Assembly (NCBI RefSeq): GCF_016888005.1
Contig: NZ_JAFDVE010000009.1
Location: 124,001-188,000, forward strand
Reading direction: 5' to 3'
Source: Phycicoccus sp. CSK15P-2
GTDB lineage: Bacteria; Actinomycetota; Actinomycetes; Actinomycetales; Dermatophilaceae
DNA length: 64,000 nucleotides
Below, piece by piece: positions 5,738 to 24,869 of the stretch. Within the stretch, counting starts at the first letter, position 1. Each line of letters opens with the position of its first letter. The position numbers and the translations under genes were made by a program. Under the pieces are notes generated by a model. That model was not told where the DNA came from, searched no databases, and saw nothing but the letters and a program-made list of their open reading frames with translations.

Positions 5738-10717
<4,980 letters not shown>

Positions 10718-10794
10718 TCACACTCAAAAGATTGTGTTCGCGTCCACTGTGCAGTTCCCGAGATACGGTCGGGAAGACTGACATCTCCATAGAG

Positions 10795-10912
10795 TTTCGG
10801 CTGTCATAGCGAAGGGGAAACGCCCGGCTCCATTCCGAACCCGGAAGCTAAGCCCTTCAGCGCCGATGGTACTGCACTGGTGACGGTGTGGGAGAGTAGG
10901 ACGCAGCCGGAC
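10795..10912 (+). rRNA. rrf: 5S ribosomal RNA
   Basis: About 118 nt containing CCATTCCGAACCCGGAAGCT and GGGAGAGTAGG, the conserved loop regions of bacterial 5S. The termini (TTTCGGCTGTCATAGCG and CGCAGCCGGACA) can pair as helix I. It lies about 80 bases after 23S, in the standard 16S-23S-5S order. Confidence 0.95.
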
Positions 10913-13135: not shown

Positions 13136-13837
13136 ATGGTCAAGCGATCCGTCCAGGCCTACGTCGAGCTCGCCTCCGGGCTCGGGGAGATGACGAAGAC
13201 CCGTGCGCTCGAGGCGGCTCAGGAGCTCGTCGCCCTCGCCGGGGTCGAGAAGTCGTCGAAGAAGGTGGCGAAGCAGGTCGGCAAGGTGGCCGAGGACCTT
13301 CTCGCGGCGGCCGAGCACAACCGCGAGCAGGCCGTGCTCCTCGTCCAGCGTGAGGTCGAGACGGCCGTCGGTCGGGTGCTCGGGGACGTCCAGGCACTCG
13401 GGGCGACCGTGGCCGGGCTGAGCGCGCAGGTCGACGAGATCGCCCGCGCGGTGGGTATGCGCTCGGGTCGGGCGTCCGTGCCGGGCATGGCGGACGTCAG
13501 CGAGCCGGTGCTCGCGGACCCGCCGGCCGTGGCCACCGAGGCTCCCGCCGCACCGGTCCGGCGCCGTCCGGCACGTGCCTCGTTCTCCTCGGGGGCCGGC
13601 TCCGCGACGGTGTCCACTGGGGCGAAGAAGACGGCAGCGAGCAAGTCGACGGGGGCGAAGAAGACCGCGGCGAAGAAGTCGACGGCGAAGAAGACGGCAG
13701 CGAGCAAGTCGACCGGGGCGAAGAAGTCCGCGGCGAAGAAGACGGCAGCGAGCAAGTCGACCGGGGCGAAGAAGTCCGCGGCGAAGAAGACGGCAGCGAG
13801 CAGGTCCACGAGCGCCGGCAGGCGGTCGGGCTCGTGA
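13136..13837 (+). CDS. Helical protein with histone-H1-like Lys/Ala/Ser/Thr-rich repeat tail
   Basis: 233 aa, ATG with GAGGAGG just upstream; a -10-like TAGCGT overlaps the HAD stop (13091-13096). Residues 1-110 are a mostly helical, amphipathic, coiled-coil or phasin-like segment (LVALAGVEKSSKKVAKQVGK; EVETAVGRVLGDVQALG). Residues ~110-155 are a Pro/Ala linker. Residues ~160-228 consist of repeated SKSTGAKKSAAKKTAA units, like the basic tails of bacterial H1-type or Lsr2/HupB-type nucleoid proteins. Likely a nucleic-acid- or granule-associated protein; function unknown. The stop overlaps the next GTG. Confidence 0.8.
   Translation: MVKRSVQAYVELASGLGEMTKTRALEAAQELVALAGVEKSSKKVAKQVGKVAEDLLAAAEHNREQAVLLVQREVETAVGRVLGDVQALGATVAGLSAQVDEIARAVGMRSGRASVPGMADVSEPVLADPPAVATEAPAAPVRRRPARASFSSGAGSATVSTGAKKTAASKSTGAKKTAAKKSTAKKTAASKSTGAKKSAAKKTAASKSTGAKKSAAKKTAASRSTSAGRRSGS
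13630..13805 (+). repeat. 48-bp coding tandem repeat in the H1-like tail
   Basis: Units beginning GACGGCAGCGAGCA start at 13630, 13693, 13741 and 13789. The 48-bp copies 13693-13740 and 13741-13788 are identical base for base. The first unit is 63 bp because of an extra 15-bp segment, and the last is partial with AAG changed to AGG. Each 48-bp unit is 16 codons (Lys/Ala/Ser/Thr/Gly), so changes in copy number keep the frame. Confidence 0.95.
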
Positions 13838-14851: not shown

Positions 14852-15792
14852 CGACGTCGCAGCGCCGCGTCCTCCTCGTCACGCATGCCACCCGGGGCGA
14901 CGCCCAGGAGATCGCCGCCGCCGTGGCCACCAAGCTGCTCGCGTCGGGCATCGGGGTGTGCGCACCCGAGGCCGATCTCGCCGGCACCCCACTCGCGGAG
15001 GTCGACGGGGTCGGGGCCGTCGACGAGGACGACCCCGACATCGGCTGCGAGCTCGTCTGCGTCCTCGGAGGAGACGGAACCATCCTGCGGGGTGCCGAGA
15101 TCTCCCGGGGATCGGGGGCGCCTCTGCTCGGCGTCAACCTCGGCCACGTCGGCTTCCTCGCGGAGGCCGAGCGGGAGGACCTCGACGCCACGGTCGAGCA
15201 CATCTGCGCCCGCTCCTACCACGTCGAGGAGCGGACGACCCTCGCGGTCCGCGCCGTCGAGGACGGCCGTGAGGTCTTCTCGTCCTGGGCGCTCAACGAG
15301 GTCACGGTCGAGAAGGCGGCCAGAGAACGGATGCTCGAGCTCACCGTCGAGATCGACGGCCGTCCGCTGTCGACCTGGGGATGCGACGGAACGGTCGTCG
15401 CGACGCCCACCGGTTCCACTGCGTACGCCTTCAGCGCCGGTGGCCCCGTCGTCTGGCCGGACGTCGAGGCACTCCTGCTCGTCCCGATCAGCGCCCACGC
15501 CCTGTTCTCGCGCCCGGTCGTCGTCGGCCCCCAGTCCCGCCTGGCCATCCAGCTCCTGCCGCACACCGACGCCGCCGCTGTCCTGTGGTGCGACGGGCGG
15601 CGGGCGGTCACGCTGCCCCCGGGGGCCCAGGTCCACGTCGAACGGTCCGACCAGCCCGTACGTCTCGCCCGGCTCTCCCGGGCGGTCTTCACCGACCGTC
15701 TCGTCCGCAAGTTCGACCTGCCGGTGCACGGCTGGCGCGGCGCTGCGCGCGCCAGGAGCACGGGCAGCGACGGGGAGGGCCCGGAGTCGTGA
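14848..15792 (+). CDS. nadK: NAD kinase
   Basis: 314 aa from the ATG overlapping the tlyA stop. It phosphorylates NAD to NADP using ATP or polyphosphate. The diagnostic GGDG is at residues 74-77 (CVLGGDGTILRGAE), followed by GVNLGHVGFLAE and the later TPTGSTAYAFSAGGP. Length and order (tlyA-nadK-recN) match mycobacteria and streptomycetes. Its stop overlaps the recN GTG. Confidence 0.96.
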   Translation: MTTSQRRVLLVTHATRGDAQEIAAAVATKLLASGIGVCAPEADLAGTPLAEVDGVGAVDEDDPDIGCELVCVLGGDGTILRGAEISRGSGAPLLGVNLGHVGFLAEAEREDLDATVEHICARSYHVEERTTLAVRAVEDGREVFSSWALNEVTVEKAARERMLELTVEIDGRPLSTWGCDGTVVATPTGSTAYAFSAGGPVVWPDVEALLLVPISAHALFSRPVVVGPQSRLAIQLLPHTDAAAVLWCDGRRAVTLPPGAQVHVERSDQPVRLARLSRAVFTDRLVRKFDLPVHGWRGAARARSTGSDGEGPES

Positions 15793-17477
15793 TCGAGGAG
15801 ATCCGGATCCGGGACCTCGGGGTCATCGACGAGGCGGTCCTGCCCCTCCACGCCGGGCTCACCGTCCTCACCGGCGAGACCGGCGCGGGGAAGACGATGG
15901 TCGTCACCGCTCTGGGGCTCCTGCTCGGTGGGCGCGGTGACTCGGGGCTGGTGCGCACCGGCGCCTCCCGCACCGTCGTCGAGGGGGTCCTCGACCTGCC
16001 GGTGGGCCACGCCGCGCTGCAGCGGGTCGACGAGGCCGGGGGCGACGTGTCGGACGGCCTCGTCCTCGTGCGCACCGTGCAGGCGGACGGCCGGTCCCGG
16101 GCCCACGTCGGCGGACGCGCCGCCCCCGTCGGGCTCCTCGCAGAGATCGCGGAACATCTCGTCGCGGTGCACGGCCAGGCCGACCAGTGGCGTCTGCGGC
16201 GCTCGGACGAGCACCGGGAGGTGCTCGACGCCTACGGCGGTGCGGCGGTCGGCGGACCCCTCGACGCGTACCGCGTCGCGCACGGCGCCCTGACCACGGC
16301 CGAGGAAGAGCTGGCCGGGCTGCGGACGGCCGCCGCGGAGCGGGCGCGGGAGGCCGAGACCCTGAGGCTCGGCCTCGAGCGGATCGAGGCCCTCGAGCCG
16401 GAGGCGGGGGAGGACGACGTACTGCGGGCCGAGTCCGACCGGCTCGGCCACGCCGAGGAGCTCCGTGCGGCGGCGGGCGCGGCGCACACCGTGCTGAGCG
16501 GCGACGACGACACCCCCGACGCCGCGCCTGGAGTGCTCACCGAGCTGGCGGACGCCTCGGCCCGGGTCGCTGCGGCCTCGGCGAGCGACCCCGCCCTCGC
16601 GGCCCTCGGCACCCGGATCGACGAGGTCCGGTACCTCGCCGCGGACCTCGCTGCCGACCTCGGCTCCTACCTCGCGGACGCCGACGTCGACCCCGCCCGT
16701 CTCGACCACGTCGAGCAGCGGCGAGCCGCCCTGACCGAGCTCACGCGGTTGTACGGACCCACCGTCGACGACGTGCTCGTCTGGGGGGCGGCGGCCGCCA
16801 CCCGGGTCGCCGAGCTGGACGGCACCGGAGACCGCATCGCAGAGCTCGAGGCGCGGGTCGCCGAGCTCACCGGTGCGCGGGAGACGGCCGCGCAGGCCCT
16901 CACCGACGCGCGCTGCCGGGCCGCGGAGACCCTCGGCACCCGGATCACCGACGAGCTCGCGCATCTGGCGATGGGAGCGGCGACCGTGCTGGTCGCCGTC
17001 GAGGACTCCGGCCGCTTCGGTGCCGACGGTCGCGACACCGTCGAGGTCCGCCTCGCCGCCGGACCCGGGACGACACCCAGGTCCGTGACCAAGGCCGCGT
17101 CCGGTGGTGAGCTCTCACGCGTGATGCTCGCCATCGAGGTCGCCACCGCGCAGGAGGTCGCCTCCGTGCCCACCTTCGTCTTCGACGAGGTCGACGCCGG
17201 GGTCGGCGGCCGTGCCGCGGTCGACGTCGGGGCCCGGCTCGCGGCGCTCGCCCGGCACGCGCAGGTCGTCGTCGTCACGCATCTGGCCCAGGTGGCGGCG
17301 CACGCCGACCGGCATCTCGTCGTCGAGAAGTCCGACGACGGCAGCGTCACCCGGAGCATGGTGCACGAGGTCACCGACGACGACCGCGTGACCGAGCTCG
17401 CGCGGATGCTGGGCGGTTCCGGCACCCAGGCGGCTCTCGACCACGCCCGGGACCTGCTGGCCCGGGCCCGTCCCTGA
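15789..17477 (+). CDS. recN: DNA repair protein RecN
   Basis: 562 aa from the GTG overlapping the nadK stop. SMC-like repair ATPase acting on DNA double-strand breaks. Walker A GETGAGKT is at residues 29-36, the ABC signature region is KAASGGELSRVMLAIE, and Walker B is FVFDEVDAGVGG, followed by VTHLAQVAAHA. The middle third is a coiled coil rich in Ala, Glu and Arg. No SOS box can be seen because the gene is embedded in the operon. Confidence 0.95.
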   Translation: MIEEIRIRDLGVIDEAVLPLHAGLTVLTGETGAGKTMVVTALGLLLGGRGDSGLVRTGASRTVVEGVLDLPVGHAALQRVDEAGGDVSDGLVLVRTVQADGRSRAHVGGRAAPVGLLAEIAEHLVAVHGQADQWRLRRSDEHREVLDAYGGAAVGGPLDAYRVAHGALTTAEEELAGLRTAAAERAREAETLRLGLERIEALEPEAGEDDVLRAESDRLGHAEELRAAAGAAHTVLSGDDDTPDAAPGVLTELADASARVAAASASDPALAALGTRIDEVRYLAADLAADLGSYLADADVDPARLDHVEQRRAALTELTRLYGPTVDDVLVWGAAAATRVAELDGTGDRIAELEARVAELTGARETAAQALTDARCRAAETLGTRITDELAHLAMGAATVLVAVEDSGRFGADGRDTVEVRLAAGPGTTPRSVTKAASGGELSRVMLAIEVATAQEVASVPTFVFDEVDAGVGGRAAVDVGARLAALARHAQVVVVTHLAQVAAHADRHLVVEKSDDGSVTRSMVHEVTDDDRVTELARMLGGSGTQAALDHARDLLARARP

Positions 17478-17498
17478 GCGCGTGGGAAGATGGTGCAG

Positions 17499-18677
17499 AT
17501 GTCCATCCGCATGCTCTCCCTCCGCGACCGGGACCCGTCCGGCGAGTCGGCCGGTCCGGCACGTGTCGACCCGCGGACCAAGAACCTCACCAAGCGGCTG
17601 CGGCCGGGCGACATCGCCGTCATCGACCACCTGGACATCGACCGCGTGAGCGCCGAGGCGCTCGTGGCGTGCCGGCCCGCCGCCGTGGTCAACGCCTCCG
17701 CCTCCATCTCCGGTCGGTACCCCAACCTCGGTCCCGAGATCATCGTCGCGGCCGGCATCCCCCTGCTCGACAGCGCCGGTGCCGACGTCATGGCCATCAC
17801 GGAGGGCACCCCGCTGCGGGTCGAGGACGGACGTCTCGTCACGGCCTCCGGCCCCGTGGGCTCGGGCACGCTGCTCACACCGGACGCCGTGCAGGAGGCC
17901 ATGACCCTCGCCCGCGCGGGGCTGTCCGCCGAGATCGAGGCCTTCGCCGAGAACACGATGGACTACCTCCGCAAGGAGCGCGAGCTGCTGTTCGACGGGG
18001 TGGGGGTGCCGGAGGTCCGCACCGACCTCGACGGCAGGCACGTCCTCATCGTCGTCCGCGGCTACCACTACAAGGAGGACCTCGAGATCCTCCGGCCCTA
18101 CATCCGGGAGTTCAAGCCGATCCTCATCGGCGTCGACGGCGGGGCCGACGCGCTCATCGAGGCCCGGCACACCCCCGACCTCATCGTCGGCGACATGGAC
18201 TCCGTCTCCGACGCCGCGCTGCGCTGCGGGGCCGAGATCGTCGTCCACGCCTACCGGGACGGGCGTGCGCCCGGTCTCGACCGGGTCCGTGAGCTCGGGG
18301 TGGACCCCGTGGTGTTCCCCGCGACGGGCACGAGCGAGGACGTCGCGATGCTCCTCGCCGACGACAAGGGGGCGACCCTCATCGTGGCCGTCGGCACGCA
18401 CGTGACCCTCGTCGAGTTCCTCGACAAGGGCCGTTCCGGCATGGCGAGCACATTCCTCACCCGCCTGCGCGTCGGTGGCAAGCTCGTCGACGCCAAGGGC
18501 GTGAGCCGCCTGTACCGCACGCGCATCTCGTCCTTCAGCATCGTCCTCATGCTCGGCGTCGCCGTCTTCGCCCTCGGGGCCGCGCTGTGGTCGACCGCCG
18601 GGGGCCAGGCCCTGCTCGAGGTGGTCGCCGCACGCATCGACGACCTGCTCACCGCCATCGGAGGACTGTTCGGGTGA
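17499..18677 (+). CDS. steA: Cytokinetic-ring protein SteA (thiamin pyrophosphokinase-fold)
   Basis: 392 aa. The ATG at 17499 is preferred over 17490 because GGGAAG (17484-17489) directly abuts the earlier ATG but lies 9 bases from the later one. The N-terminal half has VVNASASISGRYPNLGPEII; the middle resembles the thiamin pyrophosphokinase catalytic domain (GVDGGADALIEA, PDLIVGDMDSVSD). One transmembrane helix lies near residues 340-362 (SIVLMLGVAVFALGAALW). In Corynebacterium glutamicum SteA and SteB localise to the division ring and affect cell separation. Position after recN equals Rv1697. Confidence 0.88.
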   Translation: MSIRMLSLRDRDPSGESAGPARVDPRTKNLTKRLRPGDIAVIDHLDIDRVSAEALVACRPAAVVNASASISGRYPNLGPEIIVAAGIPLLDSAGADVMAITEGTPLRVEDGRLVTASGPVGSGTLLTPDAVQEAMTLARAGLSAEIEAFAENTMDYLRKERELLFDGVGVPEVRTDLDGRHVLIVVRGYHYKEDLEILRPYIREFKPILIGVDGGADALIEARHTPDLIVGDMDSVSDAALRCGAEIVVHAYRDGRAPGLDRVRELGVDPVVFPATGTSEDVAMLLADDKGATLIVAVGTHVTLVEFLDKGRSGMASTFLTRLRVGGKLVDAKGVSRLYRTRISSFSIVLMLGVAVFALGAALWSTAGGQALLEVVAARIDDLLTAIGGLFG

Positions 18678-19633
18678 TCGACTTCCGCTACCACATCGTC
18701 TCCATCGCCTCGATCTTCCTCGCGCTCGCCGTCGGCATCGTCCTCGGCGCGGGGCCGCTCAAGGGCGAGATCGGCTCGACCCTGCAGAGCGAGGTCGCCG
18801 GGCTGCGCGACGACAAGACCCAGCTCAACGACCAGCTCACCGCCGCGCGCGCAGCCGTCGAGCAGCGGGACGCGTACCTCAGCTCGGTGAGCGACCGGGT
18901 CGTGCGGGGCGCCCTCGACACGAGGAGGGTGGCCCTCGTCGTCCTGCCCGGCGCGGACGCCGCGGTCAGCGAGACCGTCCTCGACGCCGTGACCGCCGCC
19001 GGCGGCGAGGTCGTCTCCACCACCTCCGTGGCAGGGGAGTGGGTGACGACCGACGAGGACGCCGCGGCGACGCGCGACGACGCCGTGGCGCAGGTCGCGC
19101 AGACCAGCGGCGTGGACATCTCGGCACCCGGCAGCGCCCAGCCCCGCGACGTCCTGCTCGCCACGCTCCTCGCCCGCTCCGGGGACGTCCAGGACCCGGG
19201 GCCCGGTGACACCGCCTCCCGTAACGGTCTGGACGGGCTCGCCGACGCCGGGTTGATCAGCCTCGACGCCCCCGAGTTCGCCCGCGCCGACCTCGTCGTC
19301 GTCGTCTCGGGTGTGGTCGGCGACGGTGACGAGACGGTGCGCACCGAGACGGCGCGGCGCTGGGTCGACCTCGCGTCCGCGCTCGACTCCGCATCGCGCG
19401 GTGCGGTGGTCGTCACGGACGCCGTGGCGGGGAGCGAGGAGGTGTCCGTGGTCGCCACGCTGCGCGCGGACGCGTCGACCGCCGGCGAGGTCTCGGGTGT
19501 CGACGACGCCGGCGATCCGACCGGGATCACGAGCACCGTGTTCGCCCTCGCGGAGCAGGCCGACGGCGGTGCCGGCCAGTACGGACTCGAGCCCAGCGCC
19601 GACGCACCCTTCGCACCGGCACCCGGCTCGTGA
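18674..19633 (+). CDS. SteB / MctB-family (copper transporter family) membrane protein
   Basis: 319 aa, GTG overlapping the steA stop. Starts MIDFRYHIVSIASIFLALAV, the hallmark N-terminal membrane anchor of the family that includes mycobacterial MctB (Rv1698) and corynebacterial SteB. A coiled-coil stretch follows (residues ~35-75), then an extracytoplasmic alpha/beta domain. Family members have been linked to copper tolerance or channel activity in mycobacteria and to cytokinesis with SteA in corynebacteria. Here coupling to steA favours the division role. No metal-binding motif is obvious. Confidence 0.85.
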   Translation: MIDFRYHIVSIASIFLALAVGIVLGAGPLKGEIGSTLQSEVAGLRDDKTQLNDQLTAARAAVEQRDAYLSSVSDRVVRGALDTRRVALVVLPGADAAVSETVLDAVTAAGGEVVSTTSVAGEWVTTDEDAAATRDDAVAQVAQTSGVDISAPGSAQPRDVLLATLLARSGDVQDPGPGDTASRNGLDGLADAGLISLDAPEFARADLVVVVSGVVGDGDETVRTETARRWVDLASALDSASRGAVVVTDAVAGSEEVSVVATLRADASTAGEVSGVDDAGDPTGITSTVFALAEQADGGAGQYGLEPSADAPFAPAPGS

Positions 19634-20439
19634 GCCCGGCCCGTCCGGTCCTCGCAGGTCTGGCCGGGGCGATGGTCGCCGCCGGCTCCTTCCGGGCGCT
19701 CCGGGCGCGGGTGCGCTCGTCCCGCTGGCAGCGCACCAACCACGCCGGCCGGCCCGTGACCGTCCTCGAGGGGCCCGCCTACGTCGTCGGCGCGGTCGCC
19801 GGTGCCGCGCTCGGTGGCCCTGCAGGCGTCGTCGCGGCAGCGGGCGCCGGTGCGTTCGGCGCGCTCGACGACCTCGCCGGTGACGGCTCGTCCAAGGGGC
19901 TGCGTGGTCACCTCGGTGCGGCGCTGCGTGGCGAGGTGACGACGGGGGCCGTGAAGGTCGTCGGGTTGGGCCTCACCGGGCTGCTCGCGGCCGCCCTCGC
20001 CGACCGCGACCGGGCCGACTGCCGCGTCATCGACACCCTCGTCGCGGGGTCCGTCGTCGCCGGTGCCGCCAACCTCGCGAACCTGCTCGACCTCCGCCCC
20101 GGAAGGGCCCTCAAGGCCACCGTGATCGCCGCGGCGCCGTTGGCCCTCGGCCGTACGGGGCCCGGGCGGACCACCGCGGGCGCTGCTGCCGGCGCCTCGC
20201 TCGGTGTCCTCGCCGAGGACCTCGCGGGCCGGGCGATGCTCGGGGACACCGGCGCCAACGCCGCCGGAGCGCTCGTCGGCGTGGCCCTCGCGCAGCGCAC
20301 GGGTCGCACCGGTCGCCTCGTGGCCCTCGCCGCCCTGACGACCGCGACGCTCGCCTCGGAACGGATCAGCTTCACCGCCGTCATCGAGTCCACCCCGGTG
20401 CTCCGCGAGATCGACGCATGGGGCCGGCCGCACCGATGA
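19630..20439 (+). CDS. Short MraY/WecA-like (PNPT) membrane transferase
   Basis: 269 aa, GTG overlapping the previous stop. Hydrophobic segments alternate with motifs of polyprenyl-phosphate N-acetylhexosamine-1-phosphate transferases: RTNHAGRPVTVLEGPA (35-50), the paired aspartates in GALDDLAGDGSSKGLRGHL (78-96; D80/D81), NLANLLDLRPGRALK (148-162; D154) and GDTGANAAGA (205-214; D206). All three acidic motifs expected for metal and UDP-sugar handling are kept, so it may be active although ~90 residues shorter than MraY. Likely role: starting a lipid-linked glycan (inference from motifs plus the following flippase and glycosyltransferase). Confidence 0.72.
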   Translation: MSPARPVLAGLAGAMVAAGSFRALRARVRSSRWQRTNHAGRPVTVLEGPAYVVGAVAGAALGGPAGVVAAAGAGAFGALDDLAGDGSSKGLRGHLGAALRGEVTTGAVKVVGLGLTGLLAAALADRDRADCRVIDTLVAGSVVAGAANLANLLDLRPGRALKATVIAAAPLALGRTGPGRTTAGAAAGASLGVLAEDLAGRAMLGDTGANAAGALVGVALAQRTGRTGRLVALAALTTATLASERISFTAVIESTPVLREIDAWGRPHR

Positions 20440-22067
20440 CGAGACAGCGGGTCGCGGCGGGTATCGCGGGCGCCGCCGGGCTCATCGCCCTGGTCACGGT
20501 CTTCTCCCGGGCCGCCGGTTTCGCCCGGATCCTCGTCTTCGCCGAGTCCGTCCGGGCGGGAGGGGTCGGCCAGATCTACCAGAGCGTCAACGCGCTGCCG
20601 AACGTCGTGTTCGAGGTCGCGGCCGGAGGCACCCTGGCCGCCGCCGCCGTGCCGCTCGTCGCGCACCGGCTGGGGGAGGGACGCCGCGAGCACGCCGACC
20701 GGCTGGCCTCGGTGCTGCTCACCTGGGCCCTCGCCGTGCTCGTCCCGCTCGGGACCGCGCTGTTCCTCCTCGCCGGCCCGTTGGTCACCCTCCTCGTCAA
20801 CGCGCCGGACGCCGCCGGCCACGCCGTCGGGGTCACCATGCTGCGGGTGTTCTCGCTGCAGGTGCCGCTCTACGGCGTGGGGATCGTGCTCACCGGGGTG
20901 CTGCACGCCCATCGCCGGTTCCTCATGGCCGCCCTCGGACCGCTGCTCTCGTCGGTCGTCGTGCTCGCGAGCTACCTCTGGTACGGCTCGCTCACCGGGG
21001 GCGAGACCGACCCGAACCTGGTCCCGGCGAGCGCCGTCGCCGTGCTCGCGTGGGGCACCACCCTCGGCGTGGCCGTCCTGTCGCTGCCGCTCGTGCTCCC
21101 GGCGTTGCGCACGGGCTGGCGGTGGCAGCCCTCGTTCCGGCTCGAGCCGGAGGACCGGCGGCGCATCGGGCACCTCGCGGGCGCCGGGGTGCTGGCCCTC
21201 GTGGCGCAGCAGAGCGCCGTGCTCGTCACCATGTTCCTCGCCAACCGGGCCTCCGCCGGTGGCGTCTTCGTCGTCTACGGGTACGCCCAGGCGGTCTACC
21301 TGCTCCCGTACGCGGTGCTCGCCGTGCCGGTCGCGCAGAGCGTCTTCCCGGCCCTGGCCCAGGGGCACGCGGCGGGAGCCGACACGGCCCGCACCGTGGC
21401 CCGCTCGATGCGGGCCGTGGTCGTGCTCCAGGGCGTGGCGGCGGGGGTCCTCATGGCCGCCGCGCCGGCGGTCGGGGCGTTCTTCGGGCTGCTCGACGCC
21501 CGCCGCGGTGCCGACGGCGCCAGCCCCGAGGCCATCGCGGCGCTTCCCGGTGCGCTGCTCGCCTTCGCCCCCGGCCTGGTCGGCTTCGGTCTCGTCGCTC
21601 TCCTCACCCGGGCGGTGTACGTCCGCGGGCGTCCGCTCGACGCGGCGCTGGCCGTCGCGGGTGGGTGGGTGCTCGCGGCCGCCCTGCCGGCGGTCCTCGC
21701 GGGGACCGGCGCGTCGCCCGGGACGCTGCTGCGAACCGTGGGCATCGCGTCGACCCTCGGGATGACGGTGGCCGGCCTCGGCCTCGTGGTCCTCGTCCGT
21801 GGCCTGTGGGGGCCGGAGGTCACCACAGGCCTGGGCCGGACGACCGGCGCGGTCGTCGTCGCGATGGCCCTCGCGGTGTTCCTCGGCGACCTCGTGACCC
21901 ACGGCAGGGCCCTCGACGACCTCCCCGAGACGGTGGTCGTCGGCGTGGCGGCGGGCGCGGTGGCACTCCTCGTCGGCACGCTCGCGGTGTTCTACGGTGA
22001 CAGGGCAGTGATGCGCGAGATCCGCGACCGTGGCCGTGCCCGGAGACGGGGAGGAGGCGACCGATGA
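20436..22067 (+). CDS. MurJ/MviN-family lipid flippase
   Basis: 543 aa from the ATG at 20436 overlapping the previous stop (ATGA); an in-frame ATG at 20418 is less likely. A polytopic membrane protein with ~14 hydrophobic segments. Family motifs include FSRAAGFARILVFAESVRAG, QIYQSVNALPNVVFEVAAGG and YLLPYAVLAVPVAQSVFPAL. MurJ flips lipid II; this copy has no C-terminal kinase-like domain such as mycobacterial MviN has. It lies between a PNPT-like gene and a glycosyltransferase rather than at the usual trxB/oriC-proximal murJ locus, so it may be a paralogue for another lipid-linked glycan. Confidence 0.85.
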   Translation: MTRQRVAAGIAGAAGLIALVTVFSRAAGFARILVFAESVRAGGVGQIYQSVNALPNVVFEVAAGGTLAAAAVPLVAHRLGEGRREHADRLASVLLTWALAVLVPLGTALFLLAGPLVTLLVNAPDAAGHAVGVTMLRVFSLQVPLYGVGIVLTGVLHAHRRFLMAALGPLLSSVVVLASYLWYGSLTGGETDPNLVPASAVAVLAWGTTLGVAVLSLPLVLPALRTGWRWQPSFRLEPEDRRRIGHLAGAGVLALVAQQSAVLVTMFLANRASAGGVFVVYGYAQAVYLLPYAVLAVPVAQSVFPALAQGHAAGADTARTVARSMRAVVVLQGVAAGVLMAAAPAVGAFFGLLDARRGADGASPEAIAALPGALLAFAPGLVGFGLVALLTRAVYVRGRPLDAALAVAGGWVLAAALPAVLAGTGASPGTLLRTVGIASTLGMTVAGLGLVVLVRGLWGPEVTTGLGRTTGAVVVAMALAVFLGDLVTHGRALDDLPETVVVGVAAGAVALLVGTLAVFYGDRAVMREIRDRGRARRRGGGDR

Positions 22068-23140
22068 GGGTCCTCCTCGTCATGGGGACGAGCACCGGCG
22101 GGGTCGGGCGGCACGTCCAGGGACTCGCCCGGCTGCTCGCGGGAGCGGGTCACGAGGTCGTGCTCGCCTGCCCCGCGGCAGCGGCCGAGGCCTTCGACCT
22201 CGCCGAGCACGCCGGGGTCACCGTCCTCGACGTCAGCGACCGGCCGCAGCCGGCGCGGGACGCTCGTGCCGTGCGGGTCCTGCGGGGGCTCACCCGCGGT
22301 GCCGACGTCGTGCACGCGCACGGGCTGCGGGTCGGCGCGCTCGCGGCCCTCGCGCTCACCCGCCGCAGCACCCCCCTGGTCACCACGCTCCACAACGCCT
22401 CGCCCGCCGGGAGGGTCACCGGTGCCGTGTACGCCGCCCTCGAACGGGTCGTGGCCCGCGGGTCGGCCGTCGTCCTCGGCGTCTCGGGGGACCTCGTCGA
22501 GCGGATGGACGCCCTGGGCGCCCGGAGCACGGGCCTCGCCGTCGTCCCCGCCCCGACCCGCCGCGCCGCCGCGCGGGACCGCTACGCCGTGCACGCCGGG
22601 CTGGGCATCGACGACCGCACCGCGCTCGCGGTCGTCCTCGCCCGGCTGGCGCCGCAGAAGGGTCTGGACGTCCTCCTGGACGCCCACGGTGACCTCACCG
22701 ACCTCGACCTCCTCACCGTCGTGGCCGGCGACGGCCCCCTCCGGAGCCGCATCCAGGACCGGATCGACGCCGAGTCGCTGCCGGTGCGCCTCCTCGGCCG
22801 CCGTGACGACGTGCCCGACCTCCTCGCCGCCGCCGACGTGGTCGTCTCGAGTGCGGTCTGGGAGGGGCAGCCGGTGGGTCTCCAGGAGGCCCTGCACGCC
22901 GGCGCGGCGATCGTCGCGACCGACGCCGGGGGGACCGCCGCGGTCGTCGGGGACGCCGCGGTGCTCGTCCCCGTCGGTGACCCCGGGTCGCTCGCGCGCG
23001 GCGTCCGGGACGTCCTCGTGCACGGCTCGGTGCGTGACGACCTGCGGTCCAAGGCCATGGAGCGTGCCGCCGAGCTACCCACCGAGGACGACGCGCTGGC
23101 CTCTGCGCTCGAGACCTACCGCGCCGCGGGTGCGCGATGA
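22064..23140 (+). CDS. GT-B glycosyltransferase (family 4 type)
   Basis: 358 aa, ATG overlapping the flippase stop. The N-terminal acceptor domain has the glycine-rich [18 protein letters not shown]. The C-terminal donor domain has [34 protein letters not shown] and [20 protein letters not shown], which carries the E-x7-E motif of retaining GT4 enzymes. No membrane span, so likely cytoplasmic and peripheral. The sugar donor cannot be read. Context suggests it extends the lipid-linked product of the PNPT-like gene before flipping. Confidence 0.85.
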
Positions 23141-23142
23141 CG

Positions 23143-23148
23143 TATCGT
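23143..23148 (+). promoter_or_regulatory. Likely -10 box for a leaderless pyrG transcript
   Basis: TATCGT ends 8 bases before the GTG at 23157. There is no Shine-Dalgarno sequence before either candidate GTG, so the message probably starts at or next to the start codon. No clear -35. Confidence 0.45.
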
Positions 23149-23156
23149 TGAAGCCC

Positions 23157-24869
23157 GTGGTGCCTCAGACGAAACAGATCTTCGTGACCGGAGGCGTCGC
23201 CTCCTCTCTCGGCAAGGGCCTGACCGCCTCGTCCCTCGGGCACCTGCTGCGGGCACGCGGGCTCCGGGTGACGATGCAGAAGCTCGACCCGTACCTCAAC
23301 GTCGACCCGGGCACCATGAACCCGTTCCAGCACGGTGAGGTCTTCGTCACCGACGACGGCGCCGAGACCGACCTCGACATCGGTCACTACGAGCGCTTCC
23401 TCGACGTCAACCTTCGCGGCAGCGCCAACGTCACCACCGGCCAGGTGTACAACCGGGTCATCCAGAGGGAGCGCCGGGGTGAGTACCTCGGCGACACCGT
23501 CCAGGTGATCCCGCACATCACGAACGAGCTCAAGGACCGGATGCGGGCCCAGGCGGCAGGGTCTCCGGGGGTCGAGGACGCGGACGCTCCGGACATCATC
23601 ATCACCGAGATCGGTGGCACCGTCGGCGACATCGAGTCGCTGCCGTTCCTCGAGGCGGCCCGCCAGGTCCGGCACGACCTCGGGCGCGACAACGTCTTCT
23701 TCCTCCACGTCTCGCTCGTGCCCTACCTCGCCCCGAGCGGCGAGCTGAAGACCAAGCCGACCCAGCACTCCGTCGCGGCCCTGCGCCAGGTCGGCATCCA
23801 GCCCGACGCGCTCGTGCTGCGGGCGGACCGCGAGATCCCGGAGTCGATCAAGCGCAAGATCAGCCTCATGTGCGACGTCGACAACGAGGCCTGCGCAGCC
23901 GCGGTCGACGCCCCGAGCATCTACGACATCCCCAAGGTGCTGCACCGCGAGGGTCTGGACGCCTACGTCGTGCGCCGGCTCGGCCTCGTCTTCCGGGACG
24001 TGGACTGGACCGACTGGGACCTCCTCCTCGGGCGGGTGCACAATCCCGAGCACGAGGTCGAGGTCGCGCTGGTCGGCAAGTACATCGACCTCCCCGACGC
24101 GTACCTCTCGGTCACCGAGGCCCTGCGCGCGGGGGGCTTCCACCACGACGCCAAGGTGCGCATCCGCTGGGTCGCCTCGGACGGCTGCGAGACCGAGGCG
24201 GGGGCGCAGAAGGCCCTCGGTGGGGTCGACGCGGTCCTCGTCCCCGGTGGCTTCGGCGTGCGGGGCATCGAGGGCAAGGTCGGTGCGCTGCGCTGGGCCC
24301 GCGAGCGCCGGGTGCCCACGCTCGGCATCTGCCTGGGTCTGCAGTGCATGGTCATCGAGTACGCCCGGACCGTCGCGGGGATCGACGGAGCGAGCTCCAC
24401 CGAGTTCGACCCCGACACGCCCGCCCCGGTCATCGCGACGATGGAGGAGCAGAAGGCGTTCGTCGAGGGGGCGGGCGACCTCGGCGGCACCATGCGGCTC
24501 GGCAGCCAGCGGGCACGGCTCACGGCCGGCTCGGTCGTCGCCGAGGCCTACGGCGCCGAGGTGGCCGACGAGCGGCACCGGCACCGCTACGAGGTCAACG
24601 AGGGCTACCGCGAGCGGCTCGAGGCCGCCGGGCTGGTCATCAGCGGCACCCACCCGGACCTCGGTCTCGTCGAGTTCGTCGAGCTGCCCCGTGCGGACCA
24701 CCCGTACTACGTCGCGACCCAGGCGCACCCGGAGTTCAAGTCCCGCCCCACCCGCGCCCACCCGCTCTTCTCCGGGCTCGTCGGCGCCGCCATCGAGCAG
24801 CAGCGGTCGTCCCGGCTCGTCGAGGTCGAGCGCCCGCGGGTCGCGGAGCCTGCCGACGCCAGTGCCTGA
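23157..24869 (+). CDS. pyrG: CTP synthase
   Basis: 570 aa from GTG 23157 (GTG 23160 is the alternative). Converts UTP, ATP and glutamine to CTP. The N-terminal synthetase domain starts [20 protein letters not shown] and includes [17 protein letters not shown]. The C-terminal glutaminase domain has [13 protein letters not shown] and the nucleophile in [16 protein letters not shown], with the His/Glu pair in [10 protein letters not shown]. The gene sits between the glycosyltransferase and a Nudix gene, as in other actinobacteria (Rv1699). Confidence 0.97.

Follow-up and report, generated by a model that had tools for sequence, protein, structure and literature searches.

A steA-steB gene block with a predicted lipid-linked glycan pathway in Phycicoccus and its relatives

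Here we describe a block of five genes in a 64,000-nucleotide stretch of the genome of Phycicoccus sp. CSK15P-2 (contig NZ_JAFDVE010000009.1, positions 124,001 to 188,000; hereafter the window), comprising steA, steB, a gene for a 269-amino-acid protein of the PNPT superfamily, a second murJ (murJ2) and a gene for a GT4 glycosyltransferase. Within the family of this bacterium the block is gained and lost whole, and beyond it the block is a widespread unit, not peculiar to this window, with glycosyltransferase and flippase parts that vary. With middling confidence, we read it as one functional unit, in which a small lipid-linked glycan pathway would be wired to the SteA-SteB switch of cell separation. 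A first-pass annotation, made from the letters of the DNA, had proposed a pathway of this kind; the unit, the PNPT fold and the second MurJ have held up, and we infer the catalysis, the substrates, the septal site of action and the sensing by SteA, as well as the very labels "septum-specific" and "glycan".

The five genes lie on the forward strand at 17490-23140, directly after recN, all where the first reading had put them and joined, as it had said, by four overlaps of 4 bases. The gap between recN and steA is 21 bases (12 if steA starts at the ATG at 17490 and not at 17499), and the junction of the GT4 gene with pyrG is of another kind, with no 4-base overlap. The identities proposed for SteA and the SteB/MctB homologue are borne out by curated cut-offs, since the window SteA scores 499.4 bits against 150 for NF040608 and the steB product 232.8 bits against 25.6 for PF11382 (MctB; E 1e-68). 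SteA (395 amino acids) consists of a soluble domain similar to thiamine pyrophosphokinase (TPK) and the SteA C-terminal domain, and by phmmer it matches the solved SteA 9hmy_A (E 6.8e-89). PF04263 falls slightly below its cut-off in the window protein and exceeds it in a Syntrophomonas SteA; the TIGR01378 equivalog for TPK is not reached (38.9 vs 76.4 bits).

The 269-amino-acid protein has no match in Pfam or NCBIfam, and a PDB sequence search with its profile gave no match. It adopts the fold of the PNPT superfamily (MraY/WecA/DPAGT1), as had been anticipated. The three Asp motifs that the first reading had pointed out (D80/D81, D154 and D206) are present and, together with N151, K162 and G205, invariant in 31 aligned rows (the window and 30 relatives from Actinomycetota and Bacillota), and the PNPT motifs align with those of the host's own MraY. 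A likeness due to chance motifs is ruled out by the fold and the profile. The actinomycete PNPT profile matches neither the host's own MraY nor WecA, and a broader profile found further matches in other genomes only at about 19-46 bits. To judge from its sequence, the protein appears to form a separate and new subfamily of short PNPT proteins.

Since MurJ2 passes PF03023 (124 bits) and stays below the cut-off of the TIGR01695 MurJ equivalog (131.1 vs 235.55 bits), it is classed as a divergent MurJ relative. A search for another murJ, suggested by the first-pass annotation, found one in the window's genome (C34:105461-106801, 218 bits), and all 18 block-bearing genomes tested carry a canonical MurJ elsewhere besides the locus copy. 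In a midpoint-rooted tree (like the SteA and RecN trees below, a quick tree), 30 canonical copies form one clade, with a support of 0.996 and no locus copy inside. That the block murJ is the sole copy, serving lipid II, is ruled out by the canonical MurJ elsewhere; the second MurJ likely serves a role other than lipid II. As for the GT4 protein, its nearest solved relative is PimA (E 9e-13), and all its NCBIfam matches are far under the cut-offs.

The co-inheritance of these genes is clearest in the window's family. Among its 59 genomes, 33 hold the PNPT gene and 33 SteA; both are present in 32 and both absent in 25, and the 2 mismatches fall at contig ends, where G030 (SteA only) stops in or after SteB and the contig of G050 (PNPT only) begins within SteB and goes on to PNPT, MurJ2 and GT4. 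The order SteB-PNPT-MurJ2 was found at all 24 loci read around PNPT, with SteA in reach in 23, and all 20 genomes read downstream showed PNPT-MurJ2-GT4-pyrG. In the SteA-less genomes recN is followed by pyrG in all 20 read (those, of 25, that offered a usable recN), with a gap of at most about 0.7 kb, and no block gene occurs in these recN-pyrG stretches (8 kb each, one of 3.8 kb). Because steA and the PNPT gene occur together in 32 genomes and are jointly missing from 25, because their order is kept and because recN meets pyrG where SteA is lacking, we conclude that the block comes and goes whole in this family. On its RecN tree, from which the contig-edge genomes were dropped and on which steA and PNPT carry identical labels, 10 gains or losses of the block were counted, at least 7 of them forced by starred branches; the sign test (p 0.0156) merely restates that the 7 supported changes are joint.

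Across the class, represented by 197 genomes, PNPT is present in 81 and SteA in 115 (112 above the cut-off). Excluding three weak SteA matches (G062, G090 and G107), 73 genomes have both genes, 39 SteA alone, 8 PNPT alone and 77 neither. When both are present, PNPT lies 129-2483 bases (about 1 kb) downstream of steA on the same strand in 70 of 73 genomes, and on another contig in the other 3. Block loci sampled from 18 other families, one locus per family, contain MurJ2 in 18/18, a detectable SteB in 17/18 and GT4 in 14/18, the contigs of the remaining 4 ending in or soon after MurJ2; because the same order recurs in all these families, a chance gene order is excluded. Of 15 SteA-only loci, 13 read recN-steA-(steB)-pyrG, pyrG being 5 kb off in L090 and beyond the stretch in L091, and a profile search revealed no PNPT of the block subfamily above 31 bits in 39 SteA-only or partial genomes. 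Five genomes of one family (f7), which we take to be Mycobacteriales, have recN-steA-steB-pyrG, SteB being undetected in one, which agrees with the first-pass statement that in mycobacteria SteA and MctB lead directly to pyrG. That annotation had also considered that the three added genes might separate freely from steA/steB in relatives: in the window's family they do not, the pattern being all-or-none bar the two contig-end genomes; in the class the linkage is the rule where both genes exist, but the genomes with one gene alone and two families described below (f22 and f20) depart from it. At L098 (about 7818-7925; G155:C50:48817-48924) a genome that has no PNPT gene carries, between SteB and GT4, a PNPT scrap of 21 bits, which may be a decayed copy.

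Outside the class, named genomes scanned for a SteA motif returned at least 119 stretches, in which SteA was then sought with a hidden Markov model (HMM). Among the 119 listed, 96 hold SteA and 52 encode PNPT in the stretch on the same strand as steA; when at least 4.5 kb are available downstream PNPT is found in 26 of 31 (among the matches listed); L170, from Phycicoccus, holds SteA and was missed by the HMM-scan filter. At the whole-genome level, 28 SteA-bearing genomes were searched, three of which (L106, L115 and L170) are rows of the PNPT profile itself; 26 contained PNPT with a score of at least 170 bits, one gave a fragment of 70 bits and one (G259, L203) gave no match, and none of 11 control motif matches with a non-SteA protein exceeded 40 bits.

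Bacillota loci read steA-(steB)-GT2-PNPT, for example in Syntrophomonas, Romboutsia, Terrisporobacter and Clostridioides mangenotii (in one Romboutsia an extra gene intervenes in the array), and spo0A lies upstream of steA where the stretch extends that far, as in Syntrophomonas and Intestinibacter. Three Paenibacillus loci and several Clostridia showed no detectable steB; six Bacillota loci (L131, L143, L168, L195, L199 and L208) show SteA-GT2-PNPT without a detected SteB, and SteA may act there without SteB. The Acidimicrobiia present other gene orders, with GT2 or MurJ2, and a Solirubrobacteraceae locus reads steA-steB-PNPT-pyrG. At three Coriobacteriia loci (L156, L174 and L185), GT2 and a MurJ relative adjoin SteA-SteB on the opposite strand. 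The position of steA-steB beside or downstream of spo0A in Clostridia has already been noted (PMC12977500); in that paper, the section on Clostridia mentions no PNPT or glycosyltransferase, and the words "glycosyltransferase" and "pyrG" are absent from the main text.

It has been described that the conserved pocket of SteA maps to the nucleotide site of TPK and resembles both TPK and the sialyltransferase CstII, that carbohydrate binding is predicted, and that GDP or UDP stabilises the C. glutamicum protein, its ligand being stated to be unknown (PMC12977500). The window SteA keeps D216, G217 and S238, a TPK-type motif, together with H253, Y255, S282 and K313 (numbering of the 395-residue protein); the stretch D216-S238 is the one matched by TPK models. 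All seven residues are present in both partial f20 rows and in every block-bearing row but one (38 of 39), which is a fragment. Among the 35 SteA-only rows, 34 keep 0-3 of them and one keeps 5; L090, a SteA-only locus nested among block-bearing rows on the tree, has 3. Residue by residue, conservation in the SteA-only rows is 0.49 for D216, 0.11 for G217, 0.06 for S238, 0.11 for H253, 0.03 for Y255, 0.11 for S282 and 0.00 for K313. Considering the columns at least 95% conserved in the 39 block-bearing rows, the SteA-only mean is 0.80 for residues 1-170 (median 0.93; 36 columns) and 0.63 for residues 208-300 (37 columns). Furthermore, the seven residues are near-invariant in 45 Bacillota, 8 Coriobacteria-like and 10 Acidimicrobiia-like rows, except that Y255 is His in 4 of the last 10; these groups were assigned by hand with 36 of 173 SteA rows left out, and D216, G217 and S238 belong to the SteA search pattern, H253, Y255, S282 and K313 lying outside it. 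Residues of the nucleotide-binding domain are kept where the block is present and degraded in SteA-only actinomycetes, over few independent events.

By their family roles, a PNPT initiates, a GT4 enzyme extends and a MurJ-type protein flips a lipid-linked sugar. In the block, the PNPT protein, by family and fold, would transfer a sugar phosphate from a UDP-sugar to polyprenyl phosphate; by family, the GT4 protein would attach a further sugar and MurJ2 would flip the lipid-linked product. SteA, cytoplasmic under the septal membrane, would read a nucleotide, nucleotide-sugar or intermediate of the pathway through its TPK-like domain, and SteB would relay its state outward to a cell-wall hydrolase, daughter cells being allowed to part only after septal synthesis of the glycan. 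In lineages that gave up the pathway and retained SteA-SteB, the ligand site would no longer be needed and would erode. The reading of a pathway nucleotide or nucleotide-sugar by SteA would be the simplest link between SteAB and the enzymes, and the stabilisation by GDP or UDP would fit a PNPT/GT4 pair (PimA is a GDP-mannose enzyme), which is suggestive only. As for the published biology, steA and steB have been placed in one operon and SteAB in the control of septal hydrolases (PMC6705760; PMC12977500), RipA being recruited by SteAB (PMC12977500); in the papers cited here, septal localisation and hydrolase control are reported for Corynebacterium and Mycobacterium only (PMC6705760; PMC12977500; PMC12338722).

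The main rival, which we regard as unlikely but worth keeping in sight, would place SteA among the enzymes of the pathway and not make it a sensor: it would be a sugar or diphosphate transferase whose pocket is TPK/GT42-like, and in lineages that shed the pathway it would have become a pseudoenzyme scaffold. The TPK-like residues are indeed kept across phyla with the strictness of an active site and have disappeared from SteA-only genomes, the resemblance of the pocket to TPK and CstII is published (PMC12977500), and the Syntrophomonas SteA exceeds PF04263. However, no SteA activity is known, its published role is to regulate hydrolases as a partner of SteB, the score of the window SteA stays below the thiamine diphosphokinase cut-off, and f22 genomes retain PNPT and GT4 without SteA.

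These f22 genomes belong to a series of observations that weigh against the block as one functional unit. Five of their loci (L073, L074, L100, L101 and L102) read recN-PNPT-GT4 with no SteA, SteB or MurJ2 in the stretch; the enzyme pair can therefore persist once the switch is gone and work in its absence. Conversely, two f20 genomes have SteA-SteB-GT4 without MurJ2 and without any PNPT above 31 bits, and their SteA residues are intact. At four (L104, L139, L174 and L187) of the five SteA loci that show no PNPT in their 8-kb stretch, the genome nevertheless encodes it (at least 170 bits), MurJ2 was not seen in the Bacillota stretches, and extra MurJ relatives also occur in several of the 14 genomes lacking the full block. 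Moreover, the His motif of MraY, an HHH motif near the C-terminus in MraY proper, is not kept in the PNPT protein: the qHHFE of the host's own MraY aligns with LREID, and no His is conserved at that place in the 31 rows. As regards SteA, the seven residues were picked by motif and conservation, with the pocket position of those outside D216-S238 taken from sequence and not from structure; erosion also reaches the linker at residues 171-207 (0.56, 10 columns) and 301-395 (0.68, 26 columns), and K31 (0.06), M157 (0.00) and G337 (0.00) are lost in SteA-only rows too. Because the block label changes only 3-4 times on the SteA tree, the association of block and residues is not statistically established, the independent-pairs test having 3 pairs, p 1 and no power. 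Finally, mycobacterial SteA (TapA) reportedly acts on MtrB with no involvement of SteB (PMC12338722).

Some of these points would suit a second rival, according to which the block is an ordinary cell-wall glycopolymer pathway and SteAB only its operon neighbour, with no functional coupling. The recN-pyrG neighbourhood is very stable, and either of SteAB and PNPT-GT4 can be retained without the other. Nevertheless, we hold this rather improbable: the association persists in Bacillota near spo0A and in Acidimicrobiia, with other orders and another type of glycosyltransferase, at least seven all-or-none events took place in one family, and the SteA residues are eroded without the block. Least probable by far is a catalytically dead PNPT serving as partner or polyprenyl-phosphate sink that regulates SteAB, for although the protein is short and has LREID in place of the MraY HHFE stretch, its DD, N151/D154, K162 and G205/D206 are invariant and a glycosyltransferase is usually retained beside it.

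The first-pass annotation knew of no description of such a pathway joined to cytokinetic proteins, and we likewise found no paper on the block in the open-licence literature, among the matches listed; a literature search on C. difficile gene tags returned nothing on the cluster, and passages of a sporulation review had no bearing on it. Each part is of a known kind; what seems new is their union, its phylogenetic depth and the PNPT subfamily. A wider and tentative picture, possible though we would not yet lean on it, is that of an ancient, undescribed glycan checkpoint, in which the new PNPT subfamily and a GT2 or GT4 enzyme would make a septal lipid-linked saccharide, SteA would sense a nucleotide by-product or precursor, and SteB would license the cutting of the wall; it would either predate Bacillota and Actinomycetota or have passed between them, the SteA of Mycobacteriales type examined to date being a stripped remnant without pathway and ligand site. 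The SteA proteins used as models may accordingly be derived forms, and cell separation may be under the control of an unstudied sugar pathway. The block points to a class of SteA ligands, nucleotide sugars or products of PNPT and glycosyltransferase, and to organisms in which to examine it, and it brings to light a PNPT subfamily which, in the window protein, went unrecognised by Pfam and NCBIfam, as well as a second MurJ that likely does not serve lipid II.

Table 1. Genes of the block and its immediate neighbours (positions in the window).
Feature	Position	Strand	Remarks
recN	15780..17477	+	upstream context gene; SMC_N; precedes the block in most loci read
steA	17490..18677	+	start ATG 17490 or 17499; NF040608, PF12555, near-cut-off PF04263
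steB / mctB homologue	18674..19633	+	GTG start; 4-base overlap with steA; PF11382
short PNPT-type sugar-1-phosphate transferase (predicted), separate subfamily	19630..20439	+	D80/D81, N151/D154, G205/D206
murJ2, MurJ-like flippase	20436..22067	+	ATG 20436; PF03023; paralogue of canonical MurJ
GT4 glycosyltransferase	22064..23140	+	4-base overlap with murJ2; PF00534, PF13579, PF13692
pyrG	23130..24869	+	downstream context gene; GTG 23130 or TTG 23148; CTP_synth_N E 6e-120

A recent import of the block is ruled out, its GC content (0.72-0.77) being similar to that of the surroundings and its order recurring widely. A tblastn search of plasmid records gave no match. Elsewhere in the window, a 16S-23S-5S ribosomal RNA operon, full length by model, occupies 5738-10912 and is followed downstream by a HAD-TlyA-NADK-recN stretch, and at 13136-13837 lies a gene for a protein with C-terminal KKTAASKSTGAKK-type lysine/alanine repeats, by eye similar to histone H1.

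Compared with known systems, the SteA and SteB of the block are homologous to the SteA-SteB (TapA-MctB) of Corynebacterium and Mycobacterium; in the f7 genomes steAB leads to pyrG without PNPT, MurJ2 and GT4, and the SteA residues are eroded. The clostridial spo0A-steA-steB array (PMC12977500) contains the same genes, and here it is seen to continue into GT2 and a PNPT of the same subfamily; it differs from the window in having GT2 in place of GT4, with no MurJ2 seen in the stretches. With MraY, WecA and DPAGT1 the 269-amino-acid protein shares the fold and the DD, N..D and GD motifs, whereas it bears signatures of its own (GH, NLLDLRPGR and LD..GR) and lacks the MraY His motif. MurJ2 has PF03023 in common with the lipid II flippase MurJ, yet it scores below the equivalog cut-off and falls on a separate side of the tree, and the GT4 protein shares its domains with PimA, TuaC and PglH/PglJ while reaching no NCBIfam cut-off.

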